Assembly (NCBI RefSeq): GCF_014640255.1
Contig: NZ_BMGP01000004.1
Span: 248,001 to 312,000, forward strand
Length of the DNA: 64,000 bases
Reading direction: 5' to 3'
Source: Subtercola lobariae
Lineage (GTDB): Bacteria > Actinomycetota > Actinomycetes > Actinomycetales > Microbacteriaceae
Shown here in pieces: positions 8,570 to 44,077 of this stretch (the first letter of the stretch is position 1; the number at the start of each line of letters is the position of its first letter). Made by a program: the position numbers and the translations under genes. Below the pieces are notes generated by a model. The model was not told the origin of the DNA. It did not search any database and saw nothing but the letters and a program-made list of their open reading frames with translations.

Positions 8570-8725
8570 CAGCCCGGTAGATCGGCCCGGTAATGCGGCC
8601 CGGCAGTACGGCCCGCCAGTTCGGGGCGATAGCTCAGCCCGCCAGCTCAGCCCGGCAGTTTGGGGCGGTAGCTCAGCCAGCTCAGCGCGGTAGCTCAGCC
8701 CGACGGTTCAGCCCGCCAGCTCAGC
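8570..8725. repeat. Degenerate CTCAGCCCG-type repeat tract
   Basis: The 150-bp spacer after sufU consists of imperfect copies of a roughly 17-20 nt unit around GCTCAGCCCG(C/G)CAGTTC, with GGTAGCTCAG variants. It contains no ORF of interest, and no clean hairpin followed by T. Similar CTCAG-rich sequence continues at 9095-9170. Confidence 0.6.
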
Positions 8726-18982: not shown

Positions 18983-20764
18983 CTAGTACCGCAGCCCGTG
19001 ACCGAACCTGAACAGTGGGTCTGCGGTGTCGAACGGCACGTCTTCGCGGCTCGCCTCAACCGCCGCCATCGAGCGCGGCACGTCGAACGGCAACGAGCCC
19101 TTCGGCTCCGCGTCGCCGAACAGCACGGCGAGCAGCGAACCATCTGAGCTGCCGAAATTCGCCACGATGGCGGCGGCTTCGTCGACGAGGGGCGTCAGGA
19201 TGGCCGGGCGATCCAAGTAGACGTCGAGTACGCTCGGCACCGCCCTGCTGATGCCCTGCAACCGTTCGATCTCGGCCGCCTCGAACTCGAGCGAACCGGC
19301 GTGAAAGAACGACTCGAATCCCTTCGTGCGCGAGGTGTCGTAGGGTGCGCTGATGCGCAGAATCGCCACATCGGCCCGATCGGGGCTCTCGACCACGGTG
19401 CCGTAATCGGCGAGAGCCTCAGCGCTCACGCCCTCGCCATAAATGCGCAGGCCTTTCGCGAGCGGGAGGGTGGGCGCGGTGCCGGTTTGCTTTCCATTCG
19501 TCAGCACCGTGATCGAGTCGCGCTGCGCGGCGAGCCCCGCCTCCACGAAGGCACGGTTGCCCACCACTATTTCGGCCCGCTCTTCGTCGACGAGCGGGTT
19601 CTCGAAGAGCCCGAGCGTGAACTTCTCACGCAAGATGCGGCGGATCGAGGCATCCACTCTCGCCTCACTGACATGCCCGGCCGACACCTCGCCGATCAGC
19701 ACGTCGGTGCAGATCTCGCCGCCGAACTGGTCGATGCCTGCCTCGAGCGCCAGAACGAGACGCTCGGGCCGGCTGAGGTGCTCGACGCCCCAGGCGCGGG
19801 CGGCGAGTGGATGCCCCATGATCTCTACATCGGTGAGCAGACCCCAGTCGGTGCAGACGATTCCATCGAAGCCGTAGCGCTCACGCAGCAGCCCGGTGAC
19901 GACCGACTTGTTGAAGCCGAAGCCCACCTCGTCGTACTGGGTGCCAATCGGCATGCCGTAGTACGGCATCATCTGTGAGCCACCGGCCGCAATGGCCGCC
20001 TCGAACGGCTTCAGGTGGTACTCGAACTCGCCACCGGGGTAAACCTGCTCGCGACCGTAGTCGAAGTGAGGGTCTTCGCCGTCTTTCTGCGGGCCGCCGC
20101 CCGGAAAGTGCTTGACCATGGTCGCCACCGACGAGGCGCCGAGCGTGTCGCCCTGAAAGCCCCGGATGTACGCCACCACGAGCTTCGAGGTGAGCCCGGC
20201 ATCTTCGCCGAACGTACCGTTCTGCCGCGACCAACGTGGTTCGGTGGCCAGGTCGATCTGCGGGTGAAGTGCCACGCGCAAGCCCACCGCGGTGTATTCC
20301 TGGCGAGCGATGTCGCCGAACGCCTCCACGAGCTCGGCCGAGCCGATGGCGGCGAGCCCCAGGGGCTCAGGCCACTGTGAGAACGCGCCGGCGAGCATCG
20401 CCGTGCCCGGGTTGTTGGTGAACGAGTGCCGAGGGTCGGTGGAGAGGGTCACCGGAATGCCCAGGCCAACCTCTGCCGCAACGCGCTGCACCGCGTTGTG
20501 CCACGCGGCGAAGTCGCGGCCACCGCCGGCCGAACCGAACACGTTGAAGTGGTTCATGTGCCGCTTGCGAATCAGCGACGCGAGCGACGGAAGCCCGAAC
20601 TGAGCGTTGCCCTGCTCGGGGTCGCCGGCCATCGCCATGGTGTGAAAGAGGAGGCCGGCCTTGTCTGCGAGAGTGAGCCGCGAAAGGAGGTCTTCGACGC
20701 GCTGCTCGATCGGCAGCGATGCATCGTGAAACGGAAAGCGAGTGGTTGTGCTGGTGATGCTCAT
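18983..20764 (-). CDS. Glycoside hydrolase family 3 protein (beta-glucosidase-like)
   Basis: The 593-residue protein has the GH3 N-terminal TIM barrel (about 20-345), including KHFPG at 218-222, and the nucleophile Asp306 in FDGIVCTDWG. The (alpha/beta)6 C-terminal domain follows and ends SLPFDVPRSM...DPLFRFGHGLRY, as in beta-glucosidases and beta-xylosidases. No signal peptide is present, so it should act in the cytoplasm on imported glycosides. The MFS gene lies 56 bp upstream on the same strand and the TetR at 22247 is divergent, suggesting one sugar-use unit. The exact sugar is unknown. Confidence 0.9.
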   Translation of the reverse strand: MSITSTTTRFPFHDASLPIEQRVEDLLSRLTLADKAGLLFHTMAMAGDPEQGNAQFGLPSLASLIRKRHMNHFNVFGSAGGGRDFAAWHNAVQRVAAEVGLGIPVTLSTDPRHSFTNNPGTAMLAGAFSQWPEPLGLAAIGSAELVEAFGDIARQEYTAVGLRVALHPQIDLATEPRWSRQNGTFGEDAGLTSKLVVAYIRGFQGDTLGASSVATMVKHFPGGGPQKDGEDPHFDYGREQVYPGGEFEYHLKPFEAAIAAGGSQMMPYYGMPIGTQYDEVGFGFNKSVVTGLLRERYGFDGIVCTDWGLLTDVEIMGHPLAARAWGVEHLSRPERLVLALEAGIDQFGGEICTDVLIGEVSAGHVSEARVDASIRRILREKFTLGLFENPLVDEERAEIVVGNRAFVEAGLAAQRDSITVLTNGKQTGTAPTLPLAKGLRIYGEGVSAEALADYGTVVESPDRADVAILRISAPYDTSRTKGFESFFHAGSLEFEAAEIERLQGISRAVPSVLDVYLDRPAILTPLVDEAAAIVANFGSSDGSLLAVLFGDAEPKGSLPFDVPRSMAAVEASREDVPFDTADPLFRFGHGLRY

Positions 20765-30294: not shown

Positions 30295-31692
30295 TTACTC
30301 GGCGCTGATGTCTTCGAGTGAGCGGCCGTTCGTGCGCACGCCCAAGAACAGCACGACGCAGGCCACGAGCATGATGACGATCACCACGACACCCGCGGCC
30401 AGCGAACTGACCGTGACCAGCAGCGGCAGAATCACCAGAGGTGCCGTAGCGCCACCGAGCGCCCCGATGCCATCGGCGATCGAAGCCGCCGTGCCACGCA
30501 CATTGGTAGCGAAGATCTCGGCGATGTAGGTGAACAGCGGCGCAGACATCGCGCCGGTGGCGAAGCCGAGCAGAAAGGCACCCACCGTTGCGGCAGCAAT
30601 ACCGAGGCCACAGATCATCAGCGCAACACTCAGCACCACGAGCAGAATGCTGCAGATGATGAGCGTTCGGCGCTCGATTCGCTCGATCAAGAAGATGATC
30701 ACCACCGACGAGACCACCACAGCGCTCTTGGTGAGCGCGGTAATAAGCAACGCCTGGTCGCTCGACATTCCGGCACCCTCGAGAAAAAGCGGCGTGTACG
30801 TGTTCATGGCCGTGAACCCGGCGAAGAACAGAAACAGCACCACCACGATCATGATCAGCCGATTACGCATGAGTTTCGTCGTCAGCAGCGCCTTCAACGG
30901 CTTCTGAATCTCCAGCCCCAGCGTCTTCGGTGTTTCGATGAACCGGATGCTCGAGGGCGTCACCTCACCTCGGGCCCGCGCCTCCATGCGCCGCACAATT
31001 CGCCCCGCATCGTCGAGCTTGCCGTGTTCACCGAGCCAGCGCGGAGACTCCGTGATGTCGCGACGGTTGATCAGCGGCAGCAGCACAAGGCTCACGGCGC
31101 CGAGCCCCAGCAGTATGCGCCAGGCCCCCGCCGGAGACGCGGCGAGCAACGGAATCGACGCGAAACTCGCGATCGCCACCAGCAGCGTGCCCACCAGCCC
31201 CATGCCCGCGATCGCCCGACCGCGCCTCGCCTTCGGCGCCATCTCACCGAGGTAACCGGCCAGCAGCGGCAGCACCGCTCCCATGCCCAGGCCCGACAGC
31301 ACCCGGAAGACGGTCAACGACTCGACGTTCCAGGCCAGCGCGGTTGCCAGGCTGCCGACGCCGAACAAGAGAAACATCAGCCGCAGCCCCATTTGGCGCC
31401 CGAAGCGGTCGGCGAAGTAGCCGATCACGTAGGCGCCGATGGCACCGCCGAGCAGGTTCAGCGAAACTGCCAACGCGAGATCTGTCTGGGCGACGTTCAG
31501 GCCTTGACTCACACTCGGCAGGGCGAGAGCGAGCACCGCTGATTCGTAGGTGCCCAGAAAAAAGGTCACGAACAGAGCCCCAATGGCGCCGATCGAGATG
31601 CCCAGGCGCGGCATCGCGTCGATGGCACCCTCGATTGTCTGGGTGCCGAGCTGTTCCGAGTCAATCGCGACCTCGGTGTTGTCCAACGTCAT
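30295..31692 (-). CDS. MFS transporter (aromatic acid/sugar porter-like) of the catabolic island
   Basis: The 465-residue protein has 12 predicted helices. GYFADRFGRQMGLR (motif A), RVLSGLGMGAVLPLLAGYLGEMAPKARRGRA and ITESPRWLGEHGKLDDAGRIV place it with AAHS/sugar-porter carriers. It is the last gene of the four-gene run FMO, VOC dioxygenase, cyclase, MFS on the minus strand (84 bp after the cyclase), so it probably imports the ring compound. The central loop between helices 6 and 7 is of normal length. No ligand motif is decisive. Confidence 0.88.
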   Translation of the reverse strand: MTLDNTEVAIDSEQLGTQTIEGAIDAMPRLGISIGAIGALFVTFFLGTYESAVLALALPSVSQGLNVAQTDLALAVSLNLLGGAIGAYVIGYFADRFGRQMGLRLMFLLFGVGSLATALAWNVESLTVFRVLSGLGMGAVLPLLAGYLGEMAPKARRGRAIAGMGLVGTLLVAIASFASIPLLAASPAGAWRILLGLGAVSLVLLPLINRRDITESPRWLGEHGKLDDAGRIVRRMEARARGEVTPSSIRFIETPKTLGLEIQKPLKALLTTKLMRNRLIMIVVVLFLFFAGFTAMNTYTPLFLEGAGMSSDQALLITALTKSAVVVSSVVIIFLIERIERRTLIICSILLVVLSVALMICGLGIAAATVGAFLLGFATGAMSAPLFTYIAEIFATNVRGTAASIADGIGALGGATAPLVILPLLVTVSSLAAGVVVIVIMLVACVVLFLGVRTNGRSLEDISAE

Positions 31693-31776
31693 TGTTTTCC
31701 AATCGGAGTGAAGAAATGGTGCACTGCGTGCGCGTCAGTCAGCAGCAAGCAGTCAGGAGCTGTCAGCTGTCAGTTG

Positions 31777-32547
31777 TCAGTCGTCGATGATCGCCACGGC
31801 GCGAGTCCAGCCGGCCGATGCTGCGTGAATCTTGACCGGAAAACACGACACCAGAAACCCCGTCGACGGCAGTGCCTCGAGGTTGTGCAGTTTCTCGATC
31901 TGGCAGTAGCCCGCCTCCATTCCGGCCTTGTGCCCCTCCCAGATAATGCTCGCGTCTCCGGTCTCGGCAAAGCGTTTCGCTGTGAAACTGAACGGGGCGT
32001 CCCAGCTCCAGCCGTCGGTGCCGACCACCCGCACTCCCTGGCCGGTGAGGTGCAGTGTGGCCTCGCGGCCGAAGCCGCATCCACTGTCGACATAGTCGTC
32101 GAAGCCGTAACGGGCGCCGGCCGAGGTGTTGACCACGACGATGTCGAAAGGCTGCAGGGTGTGCCCGATGCGTTCGAGTTCTTCGTCGATGTCGGCGGCC
32201 GAGACGACGTAGCCGTCGTCGAAGTGCCGGAAGTCGAGCTTGACGCCGGGCCGGTAGAACCAGTCGAGCGGCAGCTCGTCGATGGTGGAGGCTTTCACCC
32301 CACCATCCATCGTGGGGTGATAGTGCCAAGGCGCATCGACATGCGTTCCGTTGTGGGTCGACAGTGTGATCTTTTCGACGGCCCAGCCGAGACCGCCCGG
32401 CAGGTCTTCGGGGTTGAGGCCCGGAAACATGCTGGCGATCTGTGCTGCGGTTTCTTCGTGCGCCGAGTACTCGATGTTCAGCTTCTGAACAGGCGGGTCG
32501 GCCGGAACGTCGTTTTGAATGGGAATGGAGATATCGATGAATCGCAT
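31777..32547 (-). CDS. Cyclase family protein (kynurenine formamidase-fold hydrolase)
   Basis: The 256-residue protein has the metal-binding motif HNGTHVDAPWH (His65, His69, Asp71, His75) of the cyclase/KynB family (PF04199), plus later family blocks: VVGTDGWSWDAPF and the EGHKAGMEAGYCQIEKLHNLEALPSTG region. Family members hydrolyse amides such as N-formylkynurenine or isatin. Here it follows an extradiol-type dioxygenase, so cleavage of an amide or formamide arising from ring opening is a fair guess. Start ATG 32547 begins the conserved RFIDIS run; TTG 32565 is an alternative. Confidence 0.88.
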   Translation of the reverse strand: MRFIDISIPIQNDVPADPPVQKLNIEYSAHEETAAQIASMFPGLNPEDLPGGLGWAVEKITLSTHNGTHVDAPWHYHPTMDGGVKASTIDELPLDWFYRPGVKLDFRHFDDGYVVSAADIDEELERIGHTLQPFDIVVVNTSAGARYGFDDYVDSGCGFGREATLHLTGQGVRVVGTDGWSWDAPFSFTAKRFAETGDASIIWEGHKAGMEAGYCQIEKLHNLEALPSTGFLVSCFPVKIHAASAGWTRAVAIIDD

Positions 32548-32619
32548 GCGCTCAGTTTCTAGCAATCAGGGTGCAACAGGTCAGTGCAACAGGTCAGTGC
32601 AGCCGATCAGTGCCGCAGA

Positions 32620-33678
32620 TCAGTGCGCAGCAGATTCGACGGATTCTCCCCGTGCCGCAGCCGTGGCGAACGGGTTGAGCAGCGCCTCGGCGAGCGCGGG
32701 CGGCGCGCCGTCTTCGGTCGCGGTGAGCCCTCCATCTGCGGCGGGGAACGACTGCATCATCGAGTCGGGCATCGCCCAGTTGCGGAAGAGGTTGTTCGAG
32801 CCGAGTGACGGCTTCCAGTTGTTGGCCTTCCAGTCGGGCACGTAGTTGCGGTAGCCGCCCGAGTTGAGCTCGACGCGCAGGCTCGACGGCTCGCGAAAGT
32901 AGAGGTAGTTCTGCTCGCCGATGCCGTGAATCGACGGCCCGTACTCGATCGACGTACCGTTCTCGAGTAGCACGTCGGCGCCGCGCACGAGGTCTTCGGG
33001 GTGGTCGGCCCAGAACGCGATGTGGTGAACGCGACCCGCGGTCGTCGAGGTGTCGAGCACCACGCCGAGGTCGTGCGATTTCTCGTTGGTGGTGAGCACC
33101 GAGAACACGTTGATGGGTGCCTCGTCGAGCAGCGTGTTGGCCATGATGCGAAAGCCGAGGGTGTCGGCGTACCAGGCGGCGAAACCCGAGACATCGGATG
33201 CCGCGACAGTGACATGGTCGAGAAAACGAGGGGCCGCCGAGTGGCTGCTGCGGCGCTCGGGGCGATCGGGGTAGATCGACTCGAAGCCCGGTTCGGCCTC
33301 GTATCCGTCGATCTCCCAGAGCAGAGTCATCGAGTGTCCGTACGGGCCGACGAACTCGTAAGCGCGGCCGTGGGCGTGGCCACTCTCGCTCCAGGTACCC
33401 GTGGTTCCGGTCGCCTCGACGCTCTCGACGAGGGCCTCGAGAGCACTGTCGCTGTGGGTGCGCCAAGCCATGGTGGCGAGTGCGGCATCCGGGCCCTCAC
33501 TAATGACGAGGCTGTAACGGTAGTAGTCGCCCCAGCAGCGGAGGTACGCCTTGCCGTCGAGGCGGTCGACGACCCGCAGACCGAATTTCTCGGTGTAGAA
33601 AGCGACCGACTCCTCGACGTTGGGGCTGGTGATTTCGAGATAGGCGATCTGCGCCAGTAGTGGGGTGGTGACGGTCAT
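32620..33678 (-). CDS. VOC family extradiol-type ring-cleavage dioxygenase (catechol 2,3-dioxygenase-like)
   Basis: The 352-residue protein has two vicinal-oxygen-chelate modules, at about 8-125 and about 152-275. The second carries the probable Fe(II) set: His in FLDHVTVA, His in GRVHHIAFWADHP and Glu in LRVELNSGG. A C-terminal extension rich in Trp and Asn (DWKANNWKPSLGSNNLF) occurs in related catechol dioxygenases. It would open a dihydroxylated ring next to the hydroxyls. ATG 33678 lies one base after the FAD monooxygenase stop, so the two are translated together. Substrate unknown. Confidence 0.88.
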   Translation of the reverse strand: MTVTTPLLAQIAYLEITSPNVEESVAFYTEKFGLRVVDRLDGKAYLRCWGDYYRYSLVISEGPDAALATMAWRTHSDSALEALVESVEATGTTGTWSESGHAHGRAYEFVGPYGHSMTLLWEIDGYEAEPGFESIYPDRPERRSSHSAAPRFLDHVTVAASDVSGFAAWYADTLGFRIMANTLLDEAPINVFSVLTTNEKSHDLGVVLDTSTTAGRVHHIAFWADHPEDLVRGADVLLENGTSIEYGPSIHGIGEQNYLYFREPSSLRVELNSGGYRNYVPDWKANNWKPSLGSNNLFRNWAMPDSMMQSFPAADGGLTATEDGAPPALAEALLNPFATAAARGESVESAAH

Positions 33679-33679
33679 A

Positions 33680-34870
33680 TCAGTTTCCGATCGTGGGCTG
33701 GGGGGTGCGGAGTTGAGGAGTGCGGAAGGGAGCGTTGAGCTTGCTCTCGAAAAAGGCAGTCTGGCCAGGCAGTTCGGCGCGCATGCCGGCAACGGCATAG
33801 GGTAGCGTTTCGGCAGTGACCTGCATCTCGGCCTCGAGAATGGCGTGCGAGATGTCGAAGACGAGCTTCACGCGGTCGTAGCGCTGTGCCGACACTGCGG
33901 TCAGCGCTTCTTCGATGGGGCGATCGGTAAGCACCTCGTCGGCCAGAACAATGCCGTCTTCGAGTGCCATGCCTGCGCCCTGAGTGAGGTGCGGCGCCAT
34001 GGTGTGTGCGGCGTCGCCCAGCACGATGACGCGGCCCTTGTGCCACGGCCGCGGAAGCACCAGTTCGATGAGCGGGCTGTAGACGATGCCCTCTGGGCCG
34101 TCGATCGCGTCGCGAATCTGACCCATGATGCCGCCGAAACCCTCGAGACGTGTCTTCAGCAGGTCGCCGAAATCGGCGGGGTCGTGATGCGGATTGCCGG
34201 GTTCTGGCACCACGAGAAACATGTACATGTGCTCTTCCGACAGCGGAATGAGGCCGGCCTTTGCCGAGATGCCCTGAAAGACCTGGGCCCTTCTGAGTTC
34301 TGCGGGGCGATCGAGCTGCAGCCGCCAGACTCCGAAACCTGCAAACTCGGCCTGCACCTCTGGCCCGAAGACCAGCGATCTGGTGGGCGATTTCACGCCG
34401 TCAAAGGCGACCACCAGGTCGTAGCGGGTCGTGCTGCCGTCGTTGAACGTGGCATCCACCCCGTCGCCGTCGTCGACCAGGTCTGCGACCGTCGTGGCAT
34501 ATCGGATGCTCGCGCCGGCGCGCTCGGCCGCTGACTTCAGAATGCCGTGCAGCGCGGGGCGAGTGATGGCCGTATTGGCCGGAACCCGCTCGTCGCCGAG
34601 GCCGGAGTCGACGGAGACGATCTCGTTGTCGTTCCAGTCGAGATAGTCGTTGCCGGCGAAACTGAACCCCGTGCTCACGCACTCCTCGAGCAGGCCGAGG
34701 GTGTCGAGGGCGCGCAGCGAATTGCCGGGCTGGTTGATGCCGACCCCGAGCACGTGCGAATCGGGTTTGACTTCGACGATGTCGACGTCGACCCCGCGTT
34801 GGGCGAGTGCCGTGGCGGCACCGAGACCACCGATGCCGGCGCCCACAATGAGCACCTTCTGAACTGCCAT
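33680..34870 (-). CDS. FAD-dependent aromatic monooxygenase
   Basis: The 396-residue flavoprotein belongs to the PHBH/UbiH-like group. It has the FAD motif VLIVGAGIGGLGAATAL (about 6-22), the DG motif in VAFDGVKSPTRS and the GD motif in VIVLGDAAHTMAPHLTQGAGMALEDGIVLA. It would hydroxylate an aromatic ring with NAD(P)H and O2. AAGGAG lies 7 bp before ATG 34870. It is the first gene of the operon that continues with the ring-cleavage dioxygenase, and it diverges from lysR. The C-terminus has a short RTPQ duplication. Confidence 0.92.
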   Translation of the reverse strand: MAVQKVLIVGAGIGGLGAATALAQRGVDVDIVEVKPDSHVLGVGINQPGNSLRALDTLGLLEECVSTGFSFAGNDYLDWNDNEIVSVDSGLGDERVPANTAITRPALHGILKSAAERAGASIRYATTVADLVDDGDGVDATFNDGSTTRYDLVVAFDGVKSPTRSLVFGPEVQAEFAGFGVWRLQLDRPAELRRAQVFQGISAKAGLIPLSEEHMYMFLVVPEPGNPHHDPADFGDLLKTRLEGFGGIMGQIRDAIDGPEGIVYSPLIELVLPRPWHKGRVIVLGDAAHTMAPHLTQGAGMALEDGIVLADEVLTDRPIEEALTAVSAQRYDRVKLVFDISHAILEAEMQVTAETLPYAVAGMRAELPGQTAFFESKLNAPFRTPQLRTPQPTIGN

Positions 34871-35020
34871 GCTGACTCCTTCGTCTGCGAATCTGTGGCT
34901 GTGAATCTGTGTCGACTCGAACCTTCTACGCCCCACCGCACATCACGATGGAGGCGAGCCGTGGTGTAAACAGTAAGAGTCGAGGGCAATGCCGCCCAAG
35001 CACCCAATGTCGATAGCGAA

Positions 35021-35037
35021 TATCAATCGAATCGATA
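35021..35037. promoter_or_regulatory. LysR-type box 1, between the FAD monooxygenase operon and lysR
   Basis: TATCAATCGAATCGATA has 4-bp symmetric ends. It matches the site at 35964-35980 in 13 of 17 positions, with the same length. It lies 20 bp before the lysR start and 150 bp from the divergent operon. CGATAG also recurs at 35011 and 35033, 22 bp apart. Confidence 0.65.
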
Positions 35038-35056
35038 GATCGCGAAGGAACGAATC

Positions 35057-35962
35057 ATGCAGTTGGCCAGCGTCGACCTCAATCTGCTCGTGGCGCTCGA
35101 CGCACTGCTCGCCGAACGCAACGTCAGTCGCGCGGCCGAGCGACTGATGGTTGGCCAGCCCGCCATGAGTTCGACCCTGGGGCGCCTTCGGTCACTGTTC
35201 AACGACCCGCTGTTGGTACGCGAAGGGCGAGTGCTTCGAGCCACCGCGTTCGCCGAGTCGTTGGTCGAACCCGTTCGCGCGGTTCTCGCCCAGATCGAAG
35301 CCATCGTGAACGTGGGAACGGCCTTCGACCCCCTGACCGATCACCGCATCTTCTCGATCATGGCGAGCGACTACGTGGCCCTGGTTCTGCTGAGACCGCT
35401 GCTCGAACGGCTGCCCGCCCTCGCCCCCAACGTGCAGATTCACGTGCGGCCGCTCGAAACGGTTCCGGTCGACTCGGTACGCAGAAATCAGACCGATCTG
35501 CTGATCATGCCGCGAGAGCTGATGCCGAGCCACCTCGACTTACCCTTCGAAGAACTCTTCACCGACCGGTTCGTCTGCGTCGTCGATAAAGACAACCCGG
35601 TGGTGGGTGCAGAGCTCGACCGTGAACAGTTCTCTGAGTTGCCCTACCTGCAACTCAACCAGGGATTGATGACCTCGATCATCGAAACACGGCTCGACGA
35701 GCTCGGAGTCGTGCGCAACATCGAGATGGTGGCGCAGTCGTTCGTCATGGCGCCCTTTCTGCTGCCGGGAACCCGCCTGGTAGCCATCGTGCATGAGCGT
35801 TTCGCCCGCGAGCTCATGTCTGACGGGCACTTTCGCATTCTGCAGCCGCCGTTCGAACTCGCCACCATCGGCGAAGGCATGGTGTGGGCGCCGAGGCAGA
35901 CCGCCGATGCCGGTCACCGGTGGCTGCGCGGCCAGCTCGCGGAGCTCGCCCGCGACATCTGA
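35057..35962 (+). CDS. LysR family regulator of the catabolic island
   Basis: The 301-residue protein has an N-terminal winged helix (about 5-65: DLNLLVALDALLAERNVSRAAERLMVGQPAMSSTLGRLRSLFNDPLLVR) of the NodD/PcpR-like subgroup. A periplasmic-binding-protein-type effector domain follows (about 92-298). It sits between the divergent FAD monooxygenase operon and the co-directional C-C hydrolase. Matching T-N11-A type boxes occur before its own start and before the hydrolase, so it likely activates both arms in response to the substrate. Confidence 0.92.
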   Translation: MQLASVDLNLLVALDALLAERNVSRAAERLMVGQPAMSSTLGRLRSLFNDPLLVREGRVLRATAFAESLVEPVRAVLAQIEAIVNVGTAFDPLTDHRIFSIMASDYVALVLLRPLLERLPALAPNVQIHVRPLETVPVDSVRRNQTDLLIMPRELMPSHLDLPFEELFTDRFVCVVDKDNPVVGAELDREQFSELPYLQLNQGLMTSIIETRLDELGVVRNIEMVAQSFVMAPFLLPGTRLVAIVHERFARELMSDGHFRILQPPFELATIGEGMVWAPRQTADAGHRWLRGQLAELARDI

Positions 35963-35963
35963 G

Positions 35964-35980
35964 TATCGATCTCGTCGATA
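35964..35980. promoter_or_regulatory. LysR-type box 2, upstream of the C-C hydrolase gene
   Basis: TATCGA-TCTCG-TCGATA is a perfect dyad with 6-bp arms that includes the T-N11-A pattern. It starts 2 bp after the lysR stop and 99 bp before the hydrolase start. Its similarity to box 1 supports a shared regulon. Confidence 0.68.
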
Positions 35981-36078
35981 GCTCGCATCGGTGGTTGCTC
36001 ATTGAGCGGTAACCCCTCGTCGGGTCATGCTGGGGGAGGCAGTGGCGCCGTCGTGGTGCCCGCCAGAAGGTGTCTCGT

Positions 36079-37218
36079 ATGTTCGAACTGTTCCCCGGCA
36101 ACTACGTCTGGAACCTCTCCATCAACATCGCCCTCAACTCGGGGGCCCAATTGAACGAACTCGTTGATGCGTGTCGCCCGATCATCCCGCTGGCCACCAG
36201 CGGAGACGCCGGAACCGAGGCCTACCTCGCCGCATTCGAGGGCTTGGGTGACCGCATCTCTGAACTCGCGGCCGAAGACCTCGCCAATGGCAGAACCCTC
36301 AGCGCGGCGACGAAGTACGAGCGCGCCGCCACGTACTACATCACGGGCGAGCGGATGCAGCGGGTGGGGTATGAGCCACGAGTAGCCGTGTACCAGAAGA
36401 TGCTCGACGCCTTCGCCCTCTTCATGAAGTACGGCGAGCAGCCGGTGGAGCGAGTCGAGATCGCGTTCGATGGATCAAGTTTTCCGGCGCTGTTCTATCG
36501 CGCCCCGAATGCCGGGCCGAAGACCCCGGTGATCGTGCACTTCAACGGGCTCGACTCAACCAAAGAGATGATGTGGGGTTCACCGCTGCGTATCGAGTTC
36601 GCGAAGCGCGGTATCTCAACACTGATGGTCGATCATCCCGGCACCGGCGAAGCATTGCGGTTGCGCGGGCAGAAGGCCATCGTCGAAAGCGAACGCTGGG
36701 GGTCGGCGTGCATCGACTACCTCGAGACGCGCGACGACGTCGACCTGGAGCGCATCGGCATTCTCGGCTGGTCGCTCGGCGGGTACTACGCGCCCCGCGC
36801 CGCGGCATTCGAAAAGCGCTTCGCGCTCTGCGTGGCGATGGGCGCGAACTACAACTGGGGTGAGTTGCAGGCCAAGCGGGCCAAGCGCGAGGGCGAAAAC
36901 CCCGTTCCGCACTACTGGGAGCATGTGGAATGGGTGTGGGGTAAGCCGACCTTCGAGGAGTTCATGCGGTTTGCGCCGCAGGTGTCGCTCGAGGGCGTCG
37001 TCGAGCAGATCACGGTGCCGCTTCTGGTGACGCACGGGGCGAACGACCGCCAGATTCCGCTCGAATATGCGCACCAGCAGTTCGATGCGGCCATCAACAG
37101 CCCCAAGCGCGAGTTGCACATCTTCACCGAGCGCGAAGGCGGTGTGGAGCACGTCGGCGGCGACAATATTCTGCCCGCAGCGTCGTTCATTCCCGACTGG
37201 GTCGCCGAGTCGTTCTGA
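36079..37218 (+). CDS. Alpha/beta hydrolase, 2,6-dihydroxypseudooxynicotine hydrolase-like
   Basis: The 379-residue protein begins MFELFPGNYVWNLSINIAL, the characteristic start of the nicotine-pathway C-C hydrolase DHPON hydrolase and relatives. It has a helical N-terminal cap (about 1-125) and an alpha/beta core. The nucleophile is Ser232 in GWSLGGYYAPR; the acid is probably Asp in THGANDRQIPL and the base His in GVEHVGGDN. Relatives cleave C-C bonds of beta-diketone or acylpyridine compounds, or act as esterases. CAGAAGG lies 8 bp before ATG 36079; GTG 36070 is less well placed. LysR box 2 lies upstream. Confidence 0.88.
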   Translation: MFELFPGNYVWNLSINIALNSGAQLNELVDACRPIIPLATSGDAGTEAYLAAFEGLGDRISELAAEDLANGRTLSAATKYERAATYYITGERMQRVGYEPRVAVYQKMLDAFALFMKYGEQPVERVEIAFDGSSFPALFYRAPNAGPKTPVIVHFNGLDSTKEMMWGSPLRIEFAKRGISTLMVDHPGTGEALRLRGQKAIVESERWGSACIDYLETRDDVDLERIGILGWSLGGYYAPRAAAFEKRFALCVAMGANYNWGELQAKRAKREGENPVPHYWEHVEWVWGKPTFEEFMRFAPQVSLEGVVEQITVPLLVTHGANDRQIPLEYAHQQFDAAINSPKRELHIFTEREGGVEHVGGDNILPAASFIPDWVAESF

Positions 37219-37331
37219 GCGCCTGAGCGCCCCGACCGCGCGCGCATGAGCCCGCACCCGCACCCGCACCAACCACTCGACACGAATCACCCGACACCGA
37301 TCATCCGTCACCCATCTCAAGGAGAACTGCA

Positions 37332-38465
37332 ATGCCCGTTGTTTCGAACGCCCTCATCATCGGTGGAGGCATCGCCGGCCTGTCTGCGGCAGTCGCGCTC
37401 TCGAAATCCGGGGTGCACTGCGACGTCATCGAGAAATCAAGCGACCGACTCGGCTCGTCGCTCGGTCTCAGCGGGCGCGTCGGGGAGGCGCTTACTGAGC
37501 TGGGCGTCTACGACCAGTCGTATGAGACCGGTCGGCCGTTCGCGCCAGGAGATTCGGTCGTAGCGCAGATGGATTCAGCCGGAAACGTGCTCGATCCGGG
37601 CATCCTTCCCCCGTTCGCGTGGCCGGGAGCGCGCATTCCGATCGGCGTGTACCGGCCGACCTTTCTCGAGATTCTCGCCGAGGCGGCCGAAGCGAGTGGG
37701 GCGGTCGTGCGGACAGGTCTGACCGCGACATCCATCGACGACGGCAGTGAAGCCGCGCACGTGACATTCAGCGACGGAACAGAGGGCGATTACGACCTCA
37801 TCGTTGGTGCCGACGGCATCGGTTCACAGACCCGCACCGAACTTTTCGCCGATGCACCGACGCCCGCGTATGCCGGCCAAATGAGCATGCGCTGGATGGC
37901 CGATGGGCCCGCTATCGCGAATGAAGGCTGGTACCACAGCCCGCTCGGCCGATTCGGCTTCTACTATCTGCCTCACCAGGAGACGGTCTATGTGGCCGTC
38001 GTGCTTGATTCGGCGGAGTCCGTTCGCTGGAGCCAGGCAGAAGCGTACGAGGTGCTCAAGAACCTGTTCGACTCCTACACGGCACCCGCCGTGGAGGAAT
38101 TGCGCGAACGGCTCACCCCCGACTCTGTGATCATCGGCCGCCCGTTCGAGTCGTTGCTCATCCCTTCGCCGTGGTATCGCGGTCGCACGATTCTGATCGG
38201 CGACGCCGCTCACGCTACGACCGCACACATGGGTCAGGGTGGCGCCATGGCCATCGAAGACGCGGTGGTCTTGGGCCAGAGCATCGCCACCGCGGGTTCG
38301 CTCGCTGAGGCATTCGCGTCGTTCACCGAGCGCAGAAGCGACCGCGTGCGAACGGTGGTCGAGACGAGCCTCGAGCTGTCGCGCCTCGAGCAAGACCGGG
38401 CGCCTGTGGCAGAGAACATGGGCGTGATGATGAAGGCGTTTCAGGTGCTGGCACAGCCGTACTAA
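37332..38465 (+). CDS. FAD-dependent monooxygenase (second in the island)
   Basis: The 377-residue flavoprotein has GGGIAGLSAAVAL at about 11-23, the IVGADGIGSQTRTE DG motif and the ILIGDAAHATTAHMGQGGAMAIEDAVVL GD motif. It belongs to the same superfamily as the enzyme at 33680 but is clearly different in sequence. A second hydroxylation or a Baeyer-Villiger-like step is possible. AAGGAG lies 8 bp before the ATG. It follows the C-C hydrolase by 113 bp; that spacer has a short CACCCG microrepeat near 37255. The 73-bp hairpin element comes after its stop. Confidence 0.9.
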   Translation: MPVVSNALIIGGGIAGLSAAVALSKSGVHCDVIEKSSDRLGSSLGLSGRVGEALTELGVYDQSYETGRPFAPGDSVVAQMDSAGNVLDPGILPPFAWPGARIPIGVYRPTFLEILAEAAEASGAVVRTGLTATSIDDGSEAAHVTFSDGTEGDYDLIVGADGIGSQTRTELFADAPTPAYAGQMSMRWMADGPAIANEGWYHSPLGRFGFYYLPHQETVYVAVVLDSAESVRWSQAEAYEVLKNLFDSYTAPAVEELRERLTPDSVIIGRPFESLLIPSPWYRGRTILIGDAAHATTAHMGQGGAMAIEDAVVLGQSIATAGSLAEAFASFTERRSDRVRTVVETSLELSRLEQDRAPVAENMGVMMKAFQVLAQPY

Positions 38466-38534
38466 CCAGCTGTTGCAGTGGATGCTCGGCGAGCCGCTCT
38501 GGGGTCGGCTCGCCGAGCATCCACCCGCGAGCGC

Positions 38535-38612: not shown

Positions 38613-39647
38613 CTACAGCCCGAGCAGGGCCGCCTCGCGCTTGACCACCGGGGCGACCTCGGTCATGTAGAGATCGAGCGAGCCGAGCGTCATCTGCCAC
38701 GGCAGGTTGCCCACGTCGATCTGCGCGGTGAAACGGTCGACGTCGAGCAGTTCGACGCGGTGCATGATGGCGTCGATGACCTGCTGAGGGCTACCGACAG
38801 GTAGACCTTTTGCAATCCATGAGTCGTAGGCCTGACGCGGAAATCCGTCGGCGGCGAAGGCCATACCGCCGGCCTGAAAGTATCGCGAGTAATAGGGGTA
38901 GAAGTCGTCGCGAGCCTTCTGCGATGTCTTGCCCACGTAAAGGTGACCCCCTGTTGCCAGGCGCAGCTTCGATCGGTCGTGGCCGGCCTGCTCGGCGGCT
39001 CGGTAATACAGCTCGACTCGAGAGACGAACTGCTCGGGGCCCGCAAAGAACCCCATGGTCATCGGCAGTCCGAGCGATCCGGCCCGAACGGCCGAGGCGG
39101 GCGTGCCGCCGATGCCCACCCAAATGGGCAGCGGGTCTTGCAAGGGCCGCGGCGAGATCTCGACGCCGTTCAGCGGCGAACGGAATTGCCCGCGCCACGT
39201 CACGACTTTCTCGTCGCGAATCTGCAGCAGCAGCTTCAGCTTCTCGTCGAACAATGCGTCGTAGTCGGCGAGGTCGTAGCCGAACAATGGAAACGACTCG
39301 GTGAACGCCCCTCGCCCGGCGATGATCTCGGCGCGGCCGTCTGACACGTGGTCGAGCGTGGCGAACTGCTCGAAGACACGAACCGGGTCTTGGCTCGACA
39401 GCACGGTGACGCCGCTCGCCAGCCTGAGGTGCTTGGTGACGCCGGCGATGGTCGCCAGCACGATCTCGGGCGCCGACATACTGAAGTCTGAGCGGTGATG
39501 CTCGCCGAGCGTGATCACGTCGAGGCCGCCTTGGTCGGCGAGCTTCGCCAGTTCGACGATCTGGCCGAATCGCTCGTGCAGCGTCTCGGCCGATCCGCCG
39601 TTGGGGTTGGCGATCAGCTCACCGAATGAATAGATACCGAGTTCCAT
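38613..39647 (-). CDS. LLM class flavin-dependent oxidoreductase
   Basis: The 344-residue TIM-barrel protein is of the bacterial luciferase-like family. It starts MELGIYSFGELIANPNGG and has LDVITLGEHHRSDFSMSAPEIVLATIAGVTKHLRLASGVTVLSSQDPVRVFEQFATLDHVSDGRAEIIAGRGAF, typical of the group. It would use reduced FMN (or F420) to oxidise or reduce a small molecule. It follows the HxlR gene by 16 bp on the same strand, and AAGGG precedes the ATG, so the two form one operon. The HxlR regulator may sense its substrate, often a quinone or aldehyde in related pairs. Confidence 0.9.
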   Translation of the reverse strand: MELGIYSFGELIANPNGGSAETLHERFGQIVELAKLADQGGLDVITLGEHHRSDFSMSAPEIVLATIAGVTKHLRLASGVTVLSSQDPVRVFEQFATLDHVSDGRAEIIAGRGAFTESFPLFGYDLADYDALFDEKLKLLLQIRDEKVVTWRGQFRSPLNGVEISPRPLQDPLPIWVGIGGTPASAVRAGSLGLPMTMGFFAGPEQFVSRVELYYRAAEQAGHDRSKLRLATGGHLYVGKTSQKARDDFYPYYSRYFQAGGMAFAADGFPRQAYDSWIAKGLPVGSPQQVIDAIMHRVELLDVDRFTAQIDVGNLPWQMTLGSLDLYMTEVAPVVKREAALLGL

Positions 39648-40286: not shown

Positions 40287-41678
40287 ATGCATAAGCGTTG
40301 GGCCGATCTTGTCAACGCACCCTTCGAGGGTGGCTACCCGACCCCCGAAGCGACGGAGCTTTTGCGTGAGGAAGCACTGTTTCAACGCGCAGTGCAACTG
40401 TATGACTGGGCGTTACCTGCGGTCGCATTGGAGTCGATGCGGGTTGCCTGCGAAACTGCTTTCGGCGGCGGGTCGAACACGATCGTCCGTTGGCGACGAA
40501 TTGGCCCCGAGACGCTCGCGGTCACGTCAAACCCTGACGTTAGTTACGCGTTCGTCTGGCTCGATCTGAAAACCGACGGGCCGACCGTGGTCGACGCCGC
40601 ACCGCAACTGCAAGGACTCATCGACGACGCCTGGCAGAGGCCCATCACCGACATCGGCGCGGCCGGCCCCGATCACGGTCAGGGCGGCAAGTTTCTCATA
40701 GTGCCGCCGGGCTACACCGAGCCGCTCCCTGAAGGGTATTTCGTCTGTCACAGCAAAACGTACCGCGTGTTCGTTTTTCTCCGCGGCTTCTTCACCGCCG
40801 ACAGCCCCGACGCGGGGCTTGCTCAGATCGATCAGACTCAGATCTACCCCCTGCATTCCAGCGAACAGGCAACGATGAACCTCGTCAACGGTGCCGGAAC
40901 ACCTCTGCCTGCGCTGCCAGCTACCGACGCGAGCTACTTCGACCGCCTCGCCGACATCATCGACTACGAGCCCGCCGAACGGGAAGCGTTCACCATGCGC
41001 GGCTTCGCGGCCTCCCTCGGCATCATCCAGGGCATCCCATTCACCCCCGATGCTAACCGCCGGGAACTGCTCGATACGGCAGCCAGGGTGGGTGACAAAA
41101 TCGGTGCTGCGGTGTCTTTCGGCCCGAGCGATGACATTCGGGTGTGGCCTGAGCGTCGATGGACATCTAACATGGTGCCCGGCCCTCACGTCACCTCAGA
41201 CCCGGAGTTCAACGCGGCGACGTACCAAGACTTCGACGGAATGCTCACCTTCTTCTACTCCGCCTTCTCGACTTCGAACGCAATGTTCCTGGCGATGCCA
41301 GGTAAGGGCTCTCAATACGCGGGCTGCTTCTTCGACGCCAACGGTGACCGGCTTCTCGGGCAGACGACCTACACGCTCCACATTCCGGCTGACGTGCCGG
41401 TAGCGAACTATTGGAGCCTTGTGCTTTACGACGCAGAAACACGCTGCCTCATTGACACTGGCGCCGCCCTGCCGTCGATTGCATCCAACTCCGCCCTGAA
41501 ATTGAATTCGGATGGATCGGCTGACTTGCACTTCGGCCCCACGCCGCCCGAGGGCGAGCCGAACTGGATTCAAACCGTCGCTGGGCGCGGTTACCTAGCG
41601 GCCCTCCGACTCTACGGACCCACACAAGAATTCTTTGACCGCCACTGGACCCCCGGAGACATCACCCCCCAGCCCTGA
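40287..41678 (+). CDS. DUF1254/DUF1214 domain protein
   Basis: The 463-residue protein has an N-terminal DUF1254 domain (about 30-170: LFQRAVQLYDWALPAVALESMR and FLIVPPGYTEPLPEGYFVCHSKTYRVFVFLRGF). The C-terminal DUF1214 domain (about 330-455) carries DGRY-like blocks: TLHIPADVPVANYWSLVLYDAETRCLID and GEPNWIQTVAGRGYLAALRLYGPTQEFFD. No signal peptide is evident, though many relatives are exported. The function of this family is not known; it often accompanies sulfatases or dehydrogenases. It converges with the arylsulfatase, which suggests a related role. Confidence 0.87.
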   Translation: MHKRWADLVNAPFEGGYPTPEATELLREEALFQRAVQLYDWALPAVALESMRVACETAFGGGSNTIVRWRRIGPETLAVTSNPDVSYAFVWLDLKTDGPTVVDAAPQLQGLIDDAWQRPITDIGAAGPDHGQGGKFLIVPPGYTEPLPEGYFVCHSKTYRVFVFLRGFFTADSPDAGLAQIDQTQIYPLHSSEQATMNLVNGAGTPLPALPATDASYFDRLADIIDYEPAEREAFTMRGFAASLGIIQGIPFTPDANRRELLDTAARVGDKIGAAVSFGPSDDIRVWPERRWTSNMVPGPHVTSDPEFNAATYQDFDGMLTFFYSAFSTSNAMFLAMPGKGSQYAGCFFDANGDRLLGQTTYTLHIPADVPVANYWSLVLYDAETRCLIDTGAALPSIASNSALKLNSDGSADLHFGPTPPEGEPNWIQTVAGRGYLAALRLYGPTQEFFDRHWTPGDITPQP

Positions 41679-41700
41679 TCGCGTCGAACGCGATGGGGCT
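41671..41700. terminator. Hairpin between DUF1254 gene and arylsulfatase
   Basis: ATCGCG (41678-41683) and CGCGAT (41689-41694) pair around TCGAA. AGCCC (41671-41675) and GGGCT (41696-41700) extend the stem past a small internal loop. It overlaps the DUF1254 stop codon and lies between convergent genes. No T run is present. Confidence 0.5.
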
Positions 41701-41722
41701 CTGTGCTTCGAGGGAATGCGAG

Positions 41723-44077
41723 TCAGTCGCGCATGGCTTCTTCGTAGCCGTTTTGTACGTGCGAAGCAGCGTGAGCGGCAGCGGTTGTGTCGTCTTGAGG
41801 GTGCAGGTCGATGGTGACGGTGTTGATGCTGCCGGGGAAGATGAACGGTACGTCGTAGTCGAGGTTCACGGGTGTGCCGGTGTCTTGGCCTATGTCGAAG
41901 GTTTCGACGCTCATGGTGAACCGGTTACCGACGGTGTGCTCGATGCGGCCGGTCGCGACCTGCTCGCCGTTCGCGGTGAGGGTCGCGTTTCCGCCTTTCC
42001 CAAGCCCTCCACCGTCGTAAACGAAGTCGAAGGCGATCGTGTGAGTGCCTGCGGCCAGCGGCGTGCTGCCGACGAGATGGGTGTGCTCGACGTTACCGAA
42101 GTTGTAGTGGAAGATCGGTTTGCCGTCTTGCAGGTACAGTGCCCAACCGTTGAACAGGCCGCCGAGGGTTGCGATCATGCCGGAGGCGTCGCCGGTGTCG
42201 ATGCTGATGTCAGCGGTGAGCCGCCAGGACTTGTTTTTCATGTCTGGGGCGACGCCTTCGGGAATGCGTTTGCTTGATCCGTAGAACGTGAATGAGGTGC
42301 GGTCACCAGACAAGCTCGGGCGTTGCTTCGGGTTCAGGCGCAATACTCGGTCATTGTCGAGGGGCAGAACGTTGTATTTACGCGCCTCTTCGTAGAACAG
42401 GGCTTTCAGTTCGGCAAGTTTCTCGGGTTGTTCGGCGGCGAGATTTTTCGCTTCGCTGAAGTCGACGGCGACGTGATAGAGCTCCCAGGTGTACCCGTCG
42501 ATGACGTCGAGTTTGGGAATTATGGATGACCATGGCGGGCCTGCCGGGGTGGTACCCGCAATCCAGCCGTCGTGGTAGATCGCACGGTTGCCGAAGAGCT
42601 CGAAGTACTGGGTGCGTCTGACAGACTCGGCGTCTGCGTTGTCGAAGGTGTATGCCATCGACACGCCCTCCATTGGGCGTTGCGGTACACCGTTCACCTC
42701 GTCGGGTTCGGCGATGCCGAGCAGGTCGAGAATCGTGGGGGTGACGTCAATGACGTGGTGCCATTGCTGGCGCAGTTGCCCATGCCCGGCGAGTTTGTCG
42801 GGCCAGGAGATGACCATGCCGTTGCGGGTGCCGCCGTAGTGCGAGGCGATCTGCTTGGTCCACTGAAAGGGGGTGTCCATCGCGTGCGCCCACCCGACCG
42901 GGTAGTGGTTGTAGGTTTTCCAGGTGCCGAGGTCATCGATGTGCGGCAGCATCTGTTCAGCGGTGAGCACGACACCATTCATGGCCGACTCGAGATTGAT
43001 GGCACCCTCGACTTGGCCTTCAGCGCTGGCTCCGTTGTCGCCGATGATGTAAATCACGAGAGTGTTGTCGGTTTGGCCGACCTGGTCGATTGCGTCGAGC
43101 ACCCGGCCGACGTTGAAGTCGGTTTGTTCCAAGTACCCGGCGTAGATTTCCATCATCCGCACGTACAACGTCTTCTGATGCTCAGTCAGGGAATCCCAGG
43201 CCGGAATGCCTTCGGATCTTACGGTGAGTTCGGTGTCTTGCGGCACGATACCGAGGGCTTTTTGCCGGGCGAGGGTCTGTTCGCGCAGCACGTCCCAGCC
43301 CATGTCGAACGCGCCGGCGTACTTCTTCACCCACTCTGCTCGCGGATGGTGCGGGGCATGCGTTGCACCGGGTGCGTAGTAGACGAAGAAAGGTTTGTCG
43401 GGGGCGACGGATTTCTGCATCCGTATGTACGACACGGCCTGGTCGGCGAGGTCGTAGTCGAGGTTGTAGTGCGGGTTGCCGACGGAAGGTTCGATGGGCT
43501 GTGTGCCATCGAATACGTTAGGCCGCCACTGGTTCATGTCGCCGCCGATGAAGCCGTAGAACTTCTCAAACCCCAACCCGCTGGGCCACCGGTCGAACGG
43601 GCCGGCCTGGCTGGTTTCCCAGTCGGGCACGTTGTGGTTCTTGCCGAACCAGGCGGTGTTCCAGCCGTGCTGCCGAAGGATCTCTCCGATGCCTGCCGTG
43701 TCTTTGCCGAACAGCGAGTCGTAACCGGGGTAGCCGGTGGCCATCTCCATGATCTGACCGGTGTGCACCGAGTGATGATTACGCCCAGACAGCAGAGCCG
43801 CTCGGGTAGGCGAGCACATGGCGGTCGTGTGGAACGTATTGAATTTCGTGCCCTGCCCGGCGACCCGATCGACGGTCGGAGTGTTGATCGGTCCGCCGAA
43901 TGAAGACGACGCCCCGAAACCCACGTCGTCGAGCAAGATCAACACGACATTCGGAGCACCCGCGGGAGGTGCGGCTTGCGGAGTGAACGCCGGGCTGGAA
44001 TCTGCAGCCCGCTCGCCGATGCGGCCGCTGAACGGCGGGATCGGCTCGGGCAGAGTGGTAGCCAAGTTTTCCGTCAT
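41723..44077 (-). CDS. Arylsulfatase with C-terminal beta-sandwich extension
   Basis: The 784-residue enzyme cleaves sulfate esters. It has the metal aspartates in NVVLILLDDVGFG (Asp50, Asp51) and the formylglycine signature Cys88-Ser-Pro-Thr-Arg92, followed by LLSGRNHHSVHTG. Downstream blocks include GATHAPHHPRAEWVKKYAG and IGDNGASAEG. After the sulfatase core (to about 560) an extra domain of about 210 residues reads as beta-strand-rich and lectin-like, as in the 750-790-residue AtsA-type actinobacterial sulfatases. No signal peptide is visible; the formylglycine-generating enzyme is not in the window. Confidence 0.93.
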   Translation of the reverse strand: MTENLATTLPEPIPPFSGRIGERAADSSPAFTPQAAPPAGAPNVVLILLDDVGFGASSSFGGPINTPTVDRVAGQGTKFNTFHTTAMCSPTRAALLSGRNHHSVHTGQIMEMATGYPGYDSLFGKDTAGIGEILRQHGWNTAWFGKNHNVPDWETSQAGPFDRWPSGLGFEKFYGFIGGDMNQWRPNVFDGTQPIEPSVGNPHYNLDYDLADQAVSYIRMQKSVAPDKPFFVYYAPGATHAPHHPRAEWVKKYAGAFDMGWDVLREQTLARQKALGIVPQDTELTVRSEGIPAWDSLTEHQKTLYVRMMEIYAGYLEQTDFNVGRVLDAIDQVGQTDNTLVIYIIGDNGASAEGQVEGAINLESAMNGVVLTAEQMLPHIDDLGTWKTYNHYPVGWAHAMDTPFQWTKQIASHYGGTRNGMVISWPDKLAGHGQLRQQWHHVIDVTPTILDLLGIAEPDEVNGVPQRPMEGVSMAYTFDNADAESVRRTQYFELFGNRAIYHDGWIAGTTPAGPPWSSIIPKLDVIDGYTWELYHVAVDFSEAKNLAAEQPEKLAELKALFYEEARKYNVLPLDNDRVLRLNPKQRPSLSGDRTSFTFYGSSKRIPEGVAPDMKNKSWRLTADISIDTGDASGMIATLGGLFNGWALYLQDGKPIFHYNFGNVEHTHLVGSTPLAAGTHTIAFDFVYDGGGLGKGGNATLTANGEQVATGRIEHTVGNRFTMSVETFDIGQDTGTPVNLDYDVPFIFPGSINTVTIDLHPQDDTTAAAHAASHVQNGYEEAMRD

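Follow-up and report, generated by a model that had tools for sequence, protein, structure and literature searches.

A LysR-centred gene island of Subtercola lobariae as a probable catabolic module for a plant polyphenol aglycone

Which compound is degraded by the seven genes gathered around a LysR-type regulator gene in the actinobacterium Subtercola lobariae is the question raised by positions 30295 to 38465 of a 64,000-nucleotide stretch of contig NZ_BMGP01000004.1 (assembly GCF_014640255.1, positions 248,001 to 312,000), referred to here as the window. A sequence-only reading had named two FAD monooxygenases (FMOa and FMOb), a VOC dioxygenase, a cyclase, an alpha/beta hydrolase (ABH), an MFS importer and one LysR, and had favoured a pyridine-, quinoline- or indole-like substrate. 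All seven genes are intact open frames forming two divergent arms around one LysR gene, with MFS, cyclase, VOC and FMOa on the minus strand and LysR, ABH and FMOb on the plus strand, and their families were confirmed by Pfam, NCBIfam and partly PDB. The description of a LysR-centred, catabolic-looking island with two arms also stands, as the enzymes would fit hydroxylation, extradiol ring opening and C-C bond hydrolysis. The island probably degrades a plant-derived polyphenol aglycone, most likely one of the flavonoid type with a phloroglucinol-like A ring, under the control of a single LysR switch. Its features are as follows:

30295..31692, minus strand: MFS transporter (Pfam and NCBIfam), probable importer
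31777..32547, minus strand: PF04199 cyclase-fold metal hydrolase (motif HNGTHVDAPWH), proposed lactone (2-pyranone) hydrolase
32620..33678, minus strand: predicted VOC type I extradiol dioxygenase (Pfam, NCBIfam, PDB, alignment)
33680..34870, minus strand: FMOa, class A FAD monooxygenase (Pfam, NCBIfam, PDB), proposed A-ring hydroxylase
35021..35037, no strand: predicted LysR operator TATCAATCGAATCGATA between FMOa and LysR, one mismatch to palindrome
35057..35962, plus strand: LysR-type regulator (Pfam, NCBIfam)
35964..35980, no strand: predicted LysR operator between LysR and ABH, perfect palindrome TATCGA-N5-TCGATA (TATCGATCTCGTCGATA)
36079..37218, plus strand: ABH, alpha/beta hydrolase of the DHPON-hydrolase/Ayg1 kind (Pfam, PDB), proposed retro-Claisen C-C hydrolase
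37332..38465, plus strand: FMOb, second class A FAD monooxygenase (Pfam, NCBIfam, PDB)

The plant polyphenol aglycone reading is favoured because the nearest related clusters, in Arthrobacter sp. 9AX and Deinococcus aetherius, sit among genes for C-glycoside deglycosidases. The 9AX locus (L082) carries orthologues of five island genes (FMOa 58%, VOC 71%, cyclase 73%, ABH 71% and LysR 55% identity). Between and beside these orthologues lie a SnoaL-like gene, a BKACE gene (PF05853), two CGDB genes (PF19906) and several deglycosidase-alpha-like genes, and further neighbours include a GMC oxidase, a Gfo/Idh/MocA gene and a solute-binding protein match. The best PDB relative of one of these 9AX deglycosidase alpha proteins is 7dnm (E 6.8e-94), which we take to be AgCGD1 of Arthrobacter globiformis. 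On plasmid pDAETH-1 of D. aetherius (L049), one run of genes encodes, in this order, an isomerase, DUF6379, GMC oxidase, VOC, cyclase, FAH, ABH and two FMOs, so that VOC comes immediately behind the deglycosylation genes, with identities to the island of 62% for VOC, 46% for the cyclase and 53% for ABH. The isomerase matches PDB 8qvc (750 bits, E 2.9e-225) and the GMC oxidase matches 8qve (1018 bits, E 0), presumably the Deinococcus aerius proteins of Furlanetto et al., no paper naming these codes having been found.

These clusters come from a wider survey. The VOC protein was compared with a sample of 150 genomes of the host family, host included, and matched at E 0.001 in 73 of them; identities of 61-66% were reached at 16 places in 15 non-host genomes, and the next matches were at 34% or less. 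All 16 family loci were taken with about 10 kb per side where the contig allowed. A scan of named relatives, mostly Arthrobacter and kin, supplied the best 80 of 233 loci, with VOC identity up to 72%, and four of the 80 (L113, L124, L131 and L134) are the same stretches as family loci. In total 122 loci were scanned, mostly chosen for holding VOC and with a few overlaps. The genome-context search for the seven-gene set, which the sequence-only reading had proposed, found all seven genes in none of the 122 loci and five of them in 9AX.

LysR orthologues of 44% identity or more are present in eight of the 122 loci (47-57%), and all eight also hold VOC and ABH orthologues, the three together spanning 47-71% identity and four genera; the grouping of LysR, VOC and ABH is therefore more than chance. 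Besides 9AX, the eight comprise two Herbiconiux loci (VOC, cyclase, ABH, LysR, FAH and another FMO), three Georgenia loci (FMOa, VOC, ABH and LysR) and two Actinomycetospora loci (VOC, ABH, LysR and another FMO). FMOa orthologues are 58% identical in 9AX and 53-56% in the three Georgenia loci. Cyclase orthologues reach 73% in 9AX, 68-70% in Herbiconiux, 61% in L040, 60% in L053 and 46% in D. aetherius; L040, a locus of the host family, combines its cyclase with ABH (51%), VOC (61%), FAH and an FMO. At E 1e-60 the cyclase is found in two of 396 genomes of the order, host included, and in genome G476 a weak MFS match (25%) precedes a 67% cyclase.

The association with deglycosidases was followed with hidden Markov models built from the D. 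aetherius and 9AX loci. Deglycosidase alpha and beta genes occur in 8 of the 16 family loci versus 0 of 20 controls around more distant VOC genes (Fisher p 4.3e-4, or 5.5e-4 on dropping L151, which overlaps an orthologue stretch). Two controls (L137 and L145) overlap, and with 18 controls p is about 7e-4 as worked by hand; the controls were hand-picked, and four of them, together with one family locus, span less than 20 kb, which makes the p value a guide only. The pair also occurs in 12 of the 80 named loci, a count that includes the seed L082 and two stretches already present among the family loci (L124 and L134), and in two of six plasmid loci, one of them the seed L049. Among the family loci, FMO and FAH matches are each present in 14 of 16, and neither is present in L039 or L041. 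In Arthrobacter globiformis NBRC 12137, VOC begins at 44728 of a 79,186-base contig that also carries, at 64553-75059 and about 19 kb from VOC, three matches to the 9AX deglycosidase alpha (40-45% identity). Two deglycosidases of A. globiformis are described as assayed with homoorientin and orientin in PMC8563793.

The host itself differs in this respect. A C-glycoside deglycosylation locus of its own was considered and rejected, as its genome yielded neither alpha nor beta deglycosidase. The GMC oxidase and deglycosidase genes of D. aetherius have no match in the window at E 1e-12, nor does the GH3 gene of the window (18983-20764) match the GH3 of the D. aetherius locus at that threshold. A host homologue of GMC pyranose/C-glycoside oxidases (G000:C4:68763-70322; 40% identity to the D. 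aetherius protein) lies about 208 kb off on the same contig, and no deglycosidase match was found in the 20 kb stretch around it (L157). A second, very partial GMC match was seen at G000:C5:276004. Since no deglycosidase was found, it is probable that the host imports free aglycones or draws on products that others release.

The island proteins retain the residues expected of their families. PDB sequence comparison covered VOC, FMOa, ABH, FMOb and the cyclase. For VOC, the best match is 9wgj (deposited as a catechol 1,2-dioxygenase), followed by the catechol 2,3-dioxygenases 3lm4 and 7q2a. All 20 aligned sequences share six residues (His155, His219, Glu270, His202, His251 and Tyr260), and the first three are in register with the iron site of 3lm4; from XylE and BphC we take these residues to be the 2-His-1-carboxylate iron site and the catalytic His/Tyr. 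With two VOC domains, the iron site and the catalytic His/Tyr, the protein is, as judged from its sequence, a type I (VOC) extradiol dioxygenase, in agreement with the earlier expectation of an enzyme capable of Fe(II)-dependent ring cleavage. Its score against the catechol 2,3-dioxygenase equivalog TIGR03211, 232 bits, is below the curated cut-off of 320.2.

ABH is closest to 2jbw, DHPON hydrolase (E 6.5e-22), and then to the Ayg1 ('yellowish-green 1') proteins 8qd7 and 8qd1. It retains GWSLGG, and Ser235, Asp326 and His361 (residue numbers count from the GTG at 36070), which by motif we take to be the catalytic triad, are invariant in seven of seven aligned sequences. PDB matches of the cyclase are weak (isatin hydrolase, E 1e-6; kynurenine formamidase, E 1e-3), its HxGTHxDxPxH motif is retained, and it scores 39.6 bits against the arylformamidase model TIGR03035, below the curated cut-off of 223.05. 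Both FMOs retain the GxGxxG, DG and GDAAH motifs; FMO, cyclase and ABH motifs are read here in their customary meaning. The nearest NCBIfam model to the MFS protein is an aromatic acid/H+ symporter (171.8 bits, below the cut-off of 418.55). FMOb has a 53% identical paralogue on the same contig (G000:C4:434275-435399), and in the 20 kb stretch around it (L169) the other island proteins have no match at E 1e-10. Likely starts are slightly off the longest frames for FMOa (34870), VOC (33678), cyclase (32547) and ABH (36079), the last set there because its orthologues begin at MFE, and a single base separates VOC from FMOa.

Perfect palindromes with 6-base arms were scanned for in five intergenic stretches, and the single match is TATCGATCTCGTCGATA at 35964-35980; its near copy TATCAATCGAATCGATA at 35021-35037 was found by eye. 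The spacing fits the T-N11-A box of LysR-type regulators. A pattern fitted to both sites, after they had been seen, occurs at these two places only in the 4.09 Mb genome, and TATCGA-N5-TCGATA with at most one mismatch occurs at 14 places, both island sites included. The relatives provide the fair test: YATCGA-N5-TCGATR is present in exact form six times in 3,982 bases beside 11 LysR genes versus three times in 2.48 Mb elsewhere, a background that falls to two copies in about 2.26 Mb once repeated loci are removed. Palindromes with at most one mismatch flank LysR on both sides in five of the eight related loci (Arthrobacter 9AX, two Georgenia and two Actinomycetospora), all except 9AX having a mismatch on one side. 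In the two Herbiconiux loci and in Georgenia L119, a single one-mismatch site is present, on one side of LysR. The eight loci represent just four genera, so these counts overstate the number of independent events. In 9AX, with a LysR start near 8670 by alignment, LysR is separated by one site from FMOa and by the other from a minus-strand group containing the solute-binding protein, GMC oxidase and deglycosidase genes.

With a predicted palindrome at the divergent promoter that is kept in relatives, the island has the make-up of a LysR-controlled divergent operon. Because LysR lies between two copies of the palindrome, here and in five of the eight related loci, both arms are probably controlled together by one LysR, and independent expression of the two arms, which had been named as the outcome that would speak against a single unit, appears unlikely from the shared predicted operator. 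The operator also offers a direct handle on which genes belong to the pathway. As a separate observation, the three Georgenia loci (L119, L120 and L125) carry a second LysR gene around 11.0-12.1 kb, 48-49% identical to the island LysR, and in L120 and L125 a one-mismatch copy of the palindrome lies behind it.

Two described clusters suggest what such enzymes may do. According to PMC11069340, the ifc cluster of Variovorax sp. V35 includes an FMO, IfcA, that adds a hydroxyl at C8 of daidzein and also acts on further isoflavones; IfcB is a glyoxalase-type ring-cleaving enzyme 65.8% identical to FdeC (IfcA and IfcB have accessions LC777269 and LC777270); the alpha/beta hydrolase at locus 59470 is 25% identical to DHPON hydrolase; and each of the three is described as similar to fde genes. 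The pathway later passes through 2-hydroxy-5-(4-hydroxyphenyl)-4H-pyran-4-one, the gene for the step leading to it having stayed unidentified there (PMC11069340). For the fde cluster of Herbaspirillum seropedicae, citing papers describe hydroxylation by the FMO FdeE followed by dioxygenation of the naringenin A ring by FdeC.

From the gene content, motifs, related clusters and palindromes observed, we infer a substrate and an order of reactions for the island. The MFS protein would import the aglycone, and FMOa, like IfcA and FdeE, would hydroxylate C8 of a 5,7-dihydroxy A ring to give a catechol. VOC would then cleave between C8 and C8a, with C8a becoming a lactone carbonyl and the C ring becoming a 3-acyl-4-hydroxy-2-pyranone. 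Cleavage of the acyl bond is proposed for ABH because it is related to DHPON hydrolase and Ayg1 proteins; it would cut the side chain by a retro-Claisen reaction, releasing oxaloacetate if the A ring bears a 5-hydroxyl. The pyranone that remains is a lactone, and its opening by the cyclase-fold hydrolase could give a diketo acid (a 3,5-dioxo-5-aryl acid, which is a beta-keto acid), to be split by other enzymes such as the BKACE or FAH seen in relatives, and FMOb may add a further oxidation. BKACE genes near the orthologues, in the 9AX run and in Georgenia ruanii (L119, 5.6 kb from VOC), fit a beta-keto acid product, and the host has two BKACE genes elsewhere in its genome.

Taken as a whole, the scheme would be an undescribed actinobacterial route in which flavonoid aglycones are dismantled in reverse polyketide order, ending in beta-keto acid cleavage, under one LysR operator system; it is put forward tentatively, as a possibility with the balance against it. 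Soil bacteria strip the sugar from C-glycosyl flavonoids, and such a route, if true, would supply the aglycone half of C-glycoside catabolism in soil. A concrete candidate for the ring-opening part of that half is offered by the island, whose orthologues in some relatives lie amid deglycosidase genes. The words 'dioxygenase' and 'monooxygenase' are absent from the main text of five C-glycoside papers (PMC12724307, PMC8563793, PMC10807413, PMC11673046 and PMC10646112), and aglycone ring opening thus seemingly lies outside them.

Several observations weigh against a flavonoid aglycone module. The MFS protein has no match at E 1e-20 in the 122 loci and FMOb reaches at most 36% identity in them, neither having a counterpart in related clusters; at E 1e-75, with four candidates per genome scored, FMOb is found in the host only among the 396 genomes of the order. 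No deglycosidase pair lies within reach in 8 of the 16 family loci and 68 of the 80 named loci, nor is any deglycosidase present within the stretch in L040 or in seven of the eight LysR, VOC and ABH loci (two Herbiconiux, three Georgenia and two Actinomycetospora), which weakens a strict tie to C-glycosides, not the tie to aglycones. In the host genome, deglycosidase alpha was not found with a query that matched five of seven other genomes (one its own, two partly), and CGDB was not found in a search that had no positive control. Disruption of locus 59470 left daidzein degradation unaffected in Variovorax (PMC11069340); the lack of a 5-hydroxyl in daidzein would explain this. The likeness to fde, an FMO followed by a dioxygenase acting on the A ring, is drawn from descriptions in citing papers. 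A Massilia putida plasmid (L052, 3384-11176) has the gene order FMO-VOC-Rieske-HisD-SDR-FAH-epimerase-ABH with a 40% LysR (ABH 51%, FMO 41%), and the VOC of that cluster has no BLAST match to the island VOC at E 1e-10.

Other substrates have to be considered beside a flavonoid. The same module could act on another polyketide-derived plant or microbial aromatic, such as a xanthone (e.g., norathyriol), chromone, anthraquinone or acylphloroglucinol. Ayg1 proteins, which ABH also resembles, act on polyketides; the characterised clusters found with such an enzyme mix act on isoflavones and naringenin, and this alternative is considered unlikely. The N-heterocycle pathway of the sequence-only reading, in which the cyclase would serve as an amidase alongside a DHPON-type hydrolase step, draws on the best solved relatives, namely DHPON hydrolase for ABH and isatin hydrolase and kynurenine formamidase for the cyclase. 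These are folds common to N-heterocycle enzymes and the similarity is distant, the cyclase falling far below the arylformamidase cut-off. There is no molybdenum hydroxylase among the seven proteins by Pfam, part of the related loci stand in a C-glycoside deglycosylation context, and the ifc and fde clusters are similar in content, so that a pyridine, quinoline or indole substrate is now judged very improbable.

The alternative that two separate units, one arm for phenol meta-cleavage and a hydrolase/monooxygenase arm unrelated to it, share the regulator by chance would account for the lack of MFS and FMOb orthologues in related loci and for the FMOb paralogue elsewhere in the genome. It is set against the presence of ABH with VOC and LysR in eight of the 122 loci, and with VOC in D. 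aetherius, and against palindromes common to both sides of LysR, and it is accorded only a very slight chance. A flavonoid-type aglycone under one LysR switch remains the preferred reading.

Beyond FMOb, a possible edge of the island is marked by two features:

38478..38524, no strand: perfect 19-bp inverted repeat where FMOb and the LLM-type gene converge, possible terminator
38613..39644, minus strand: LLM-type gene (Pfam), convergent with FMOb

The inverted repeat is absent from the listing of the T-tail terminator scan, and the sigma-70 and T-tail terminator scans gave nothing beyond chance level. Short imperfect direct repeats around ATCAGTGC and TGTCAG were noticed by eye in the cyclase-VOC gap (window 32570-32630) and the MFS-cyclase gap (31740-31780). 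Past the LLM and HxlR genes, at window positions 40287-44077, a DUF1254/DUF1214 protein gene lies beside a large sulfatase gene on the opposite strand.

Among known systems, the literature searches made, in sources available in part, turned up no described pathway of precisely this seven-gene make-up; the claim that none is known is right only in part, as the published ifc cluster and its fde relative hold a similar mix. DHPON hydrolase is the best solved sequence relative of ABH, but a distant one, and it belongs to the nicotine pathway, a context that differs from the island. The D. aetherius C-glycoside cluster shares VOC, cyclase, ABH and two FMOs in one gene run, and differs in the GMC oxidase, deglycosidase genes and FAH of that run, the host showing no deglycosidase. 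The ifc cluster differs from the island in being proteobacterial and in its cupins IfcD1/D2, which act on the pyranone, and the word 'cyclase' is absent from the main text of PMC11069340. By description and at the level of families, the island has the content of the ifc/fde type: FMO, VOC-type dioxygenase, DHPON-like hydrolase, regulator and transporter. The ifc cluster, with its FMO, glyoxalase-type enzyme, DHPON-hydrolase-like alpha/beta hydrolase, and regulator and transporter genes, appears to be the best published parallel found, as it combines the same unusual enzyme mix with a known substrate.

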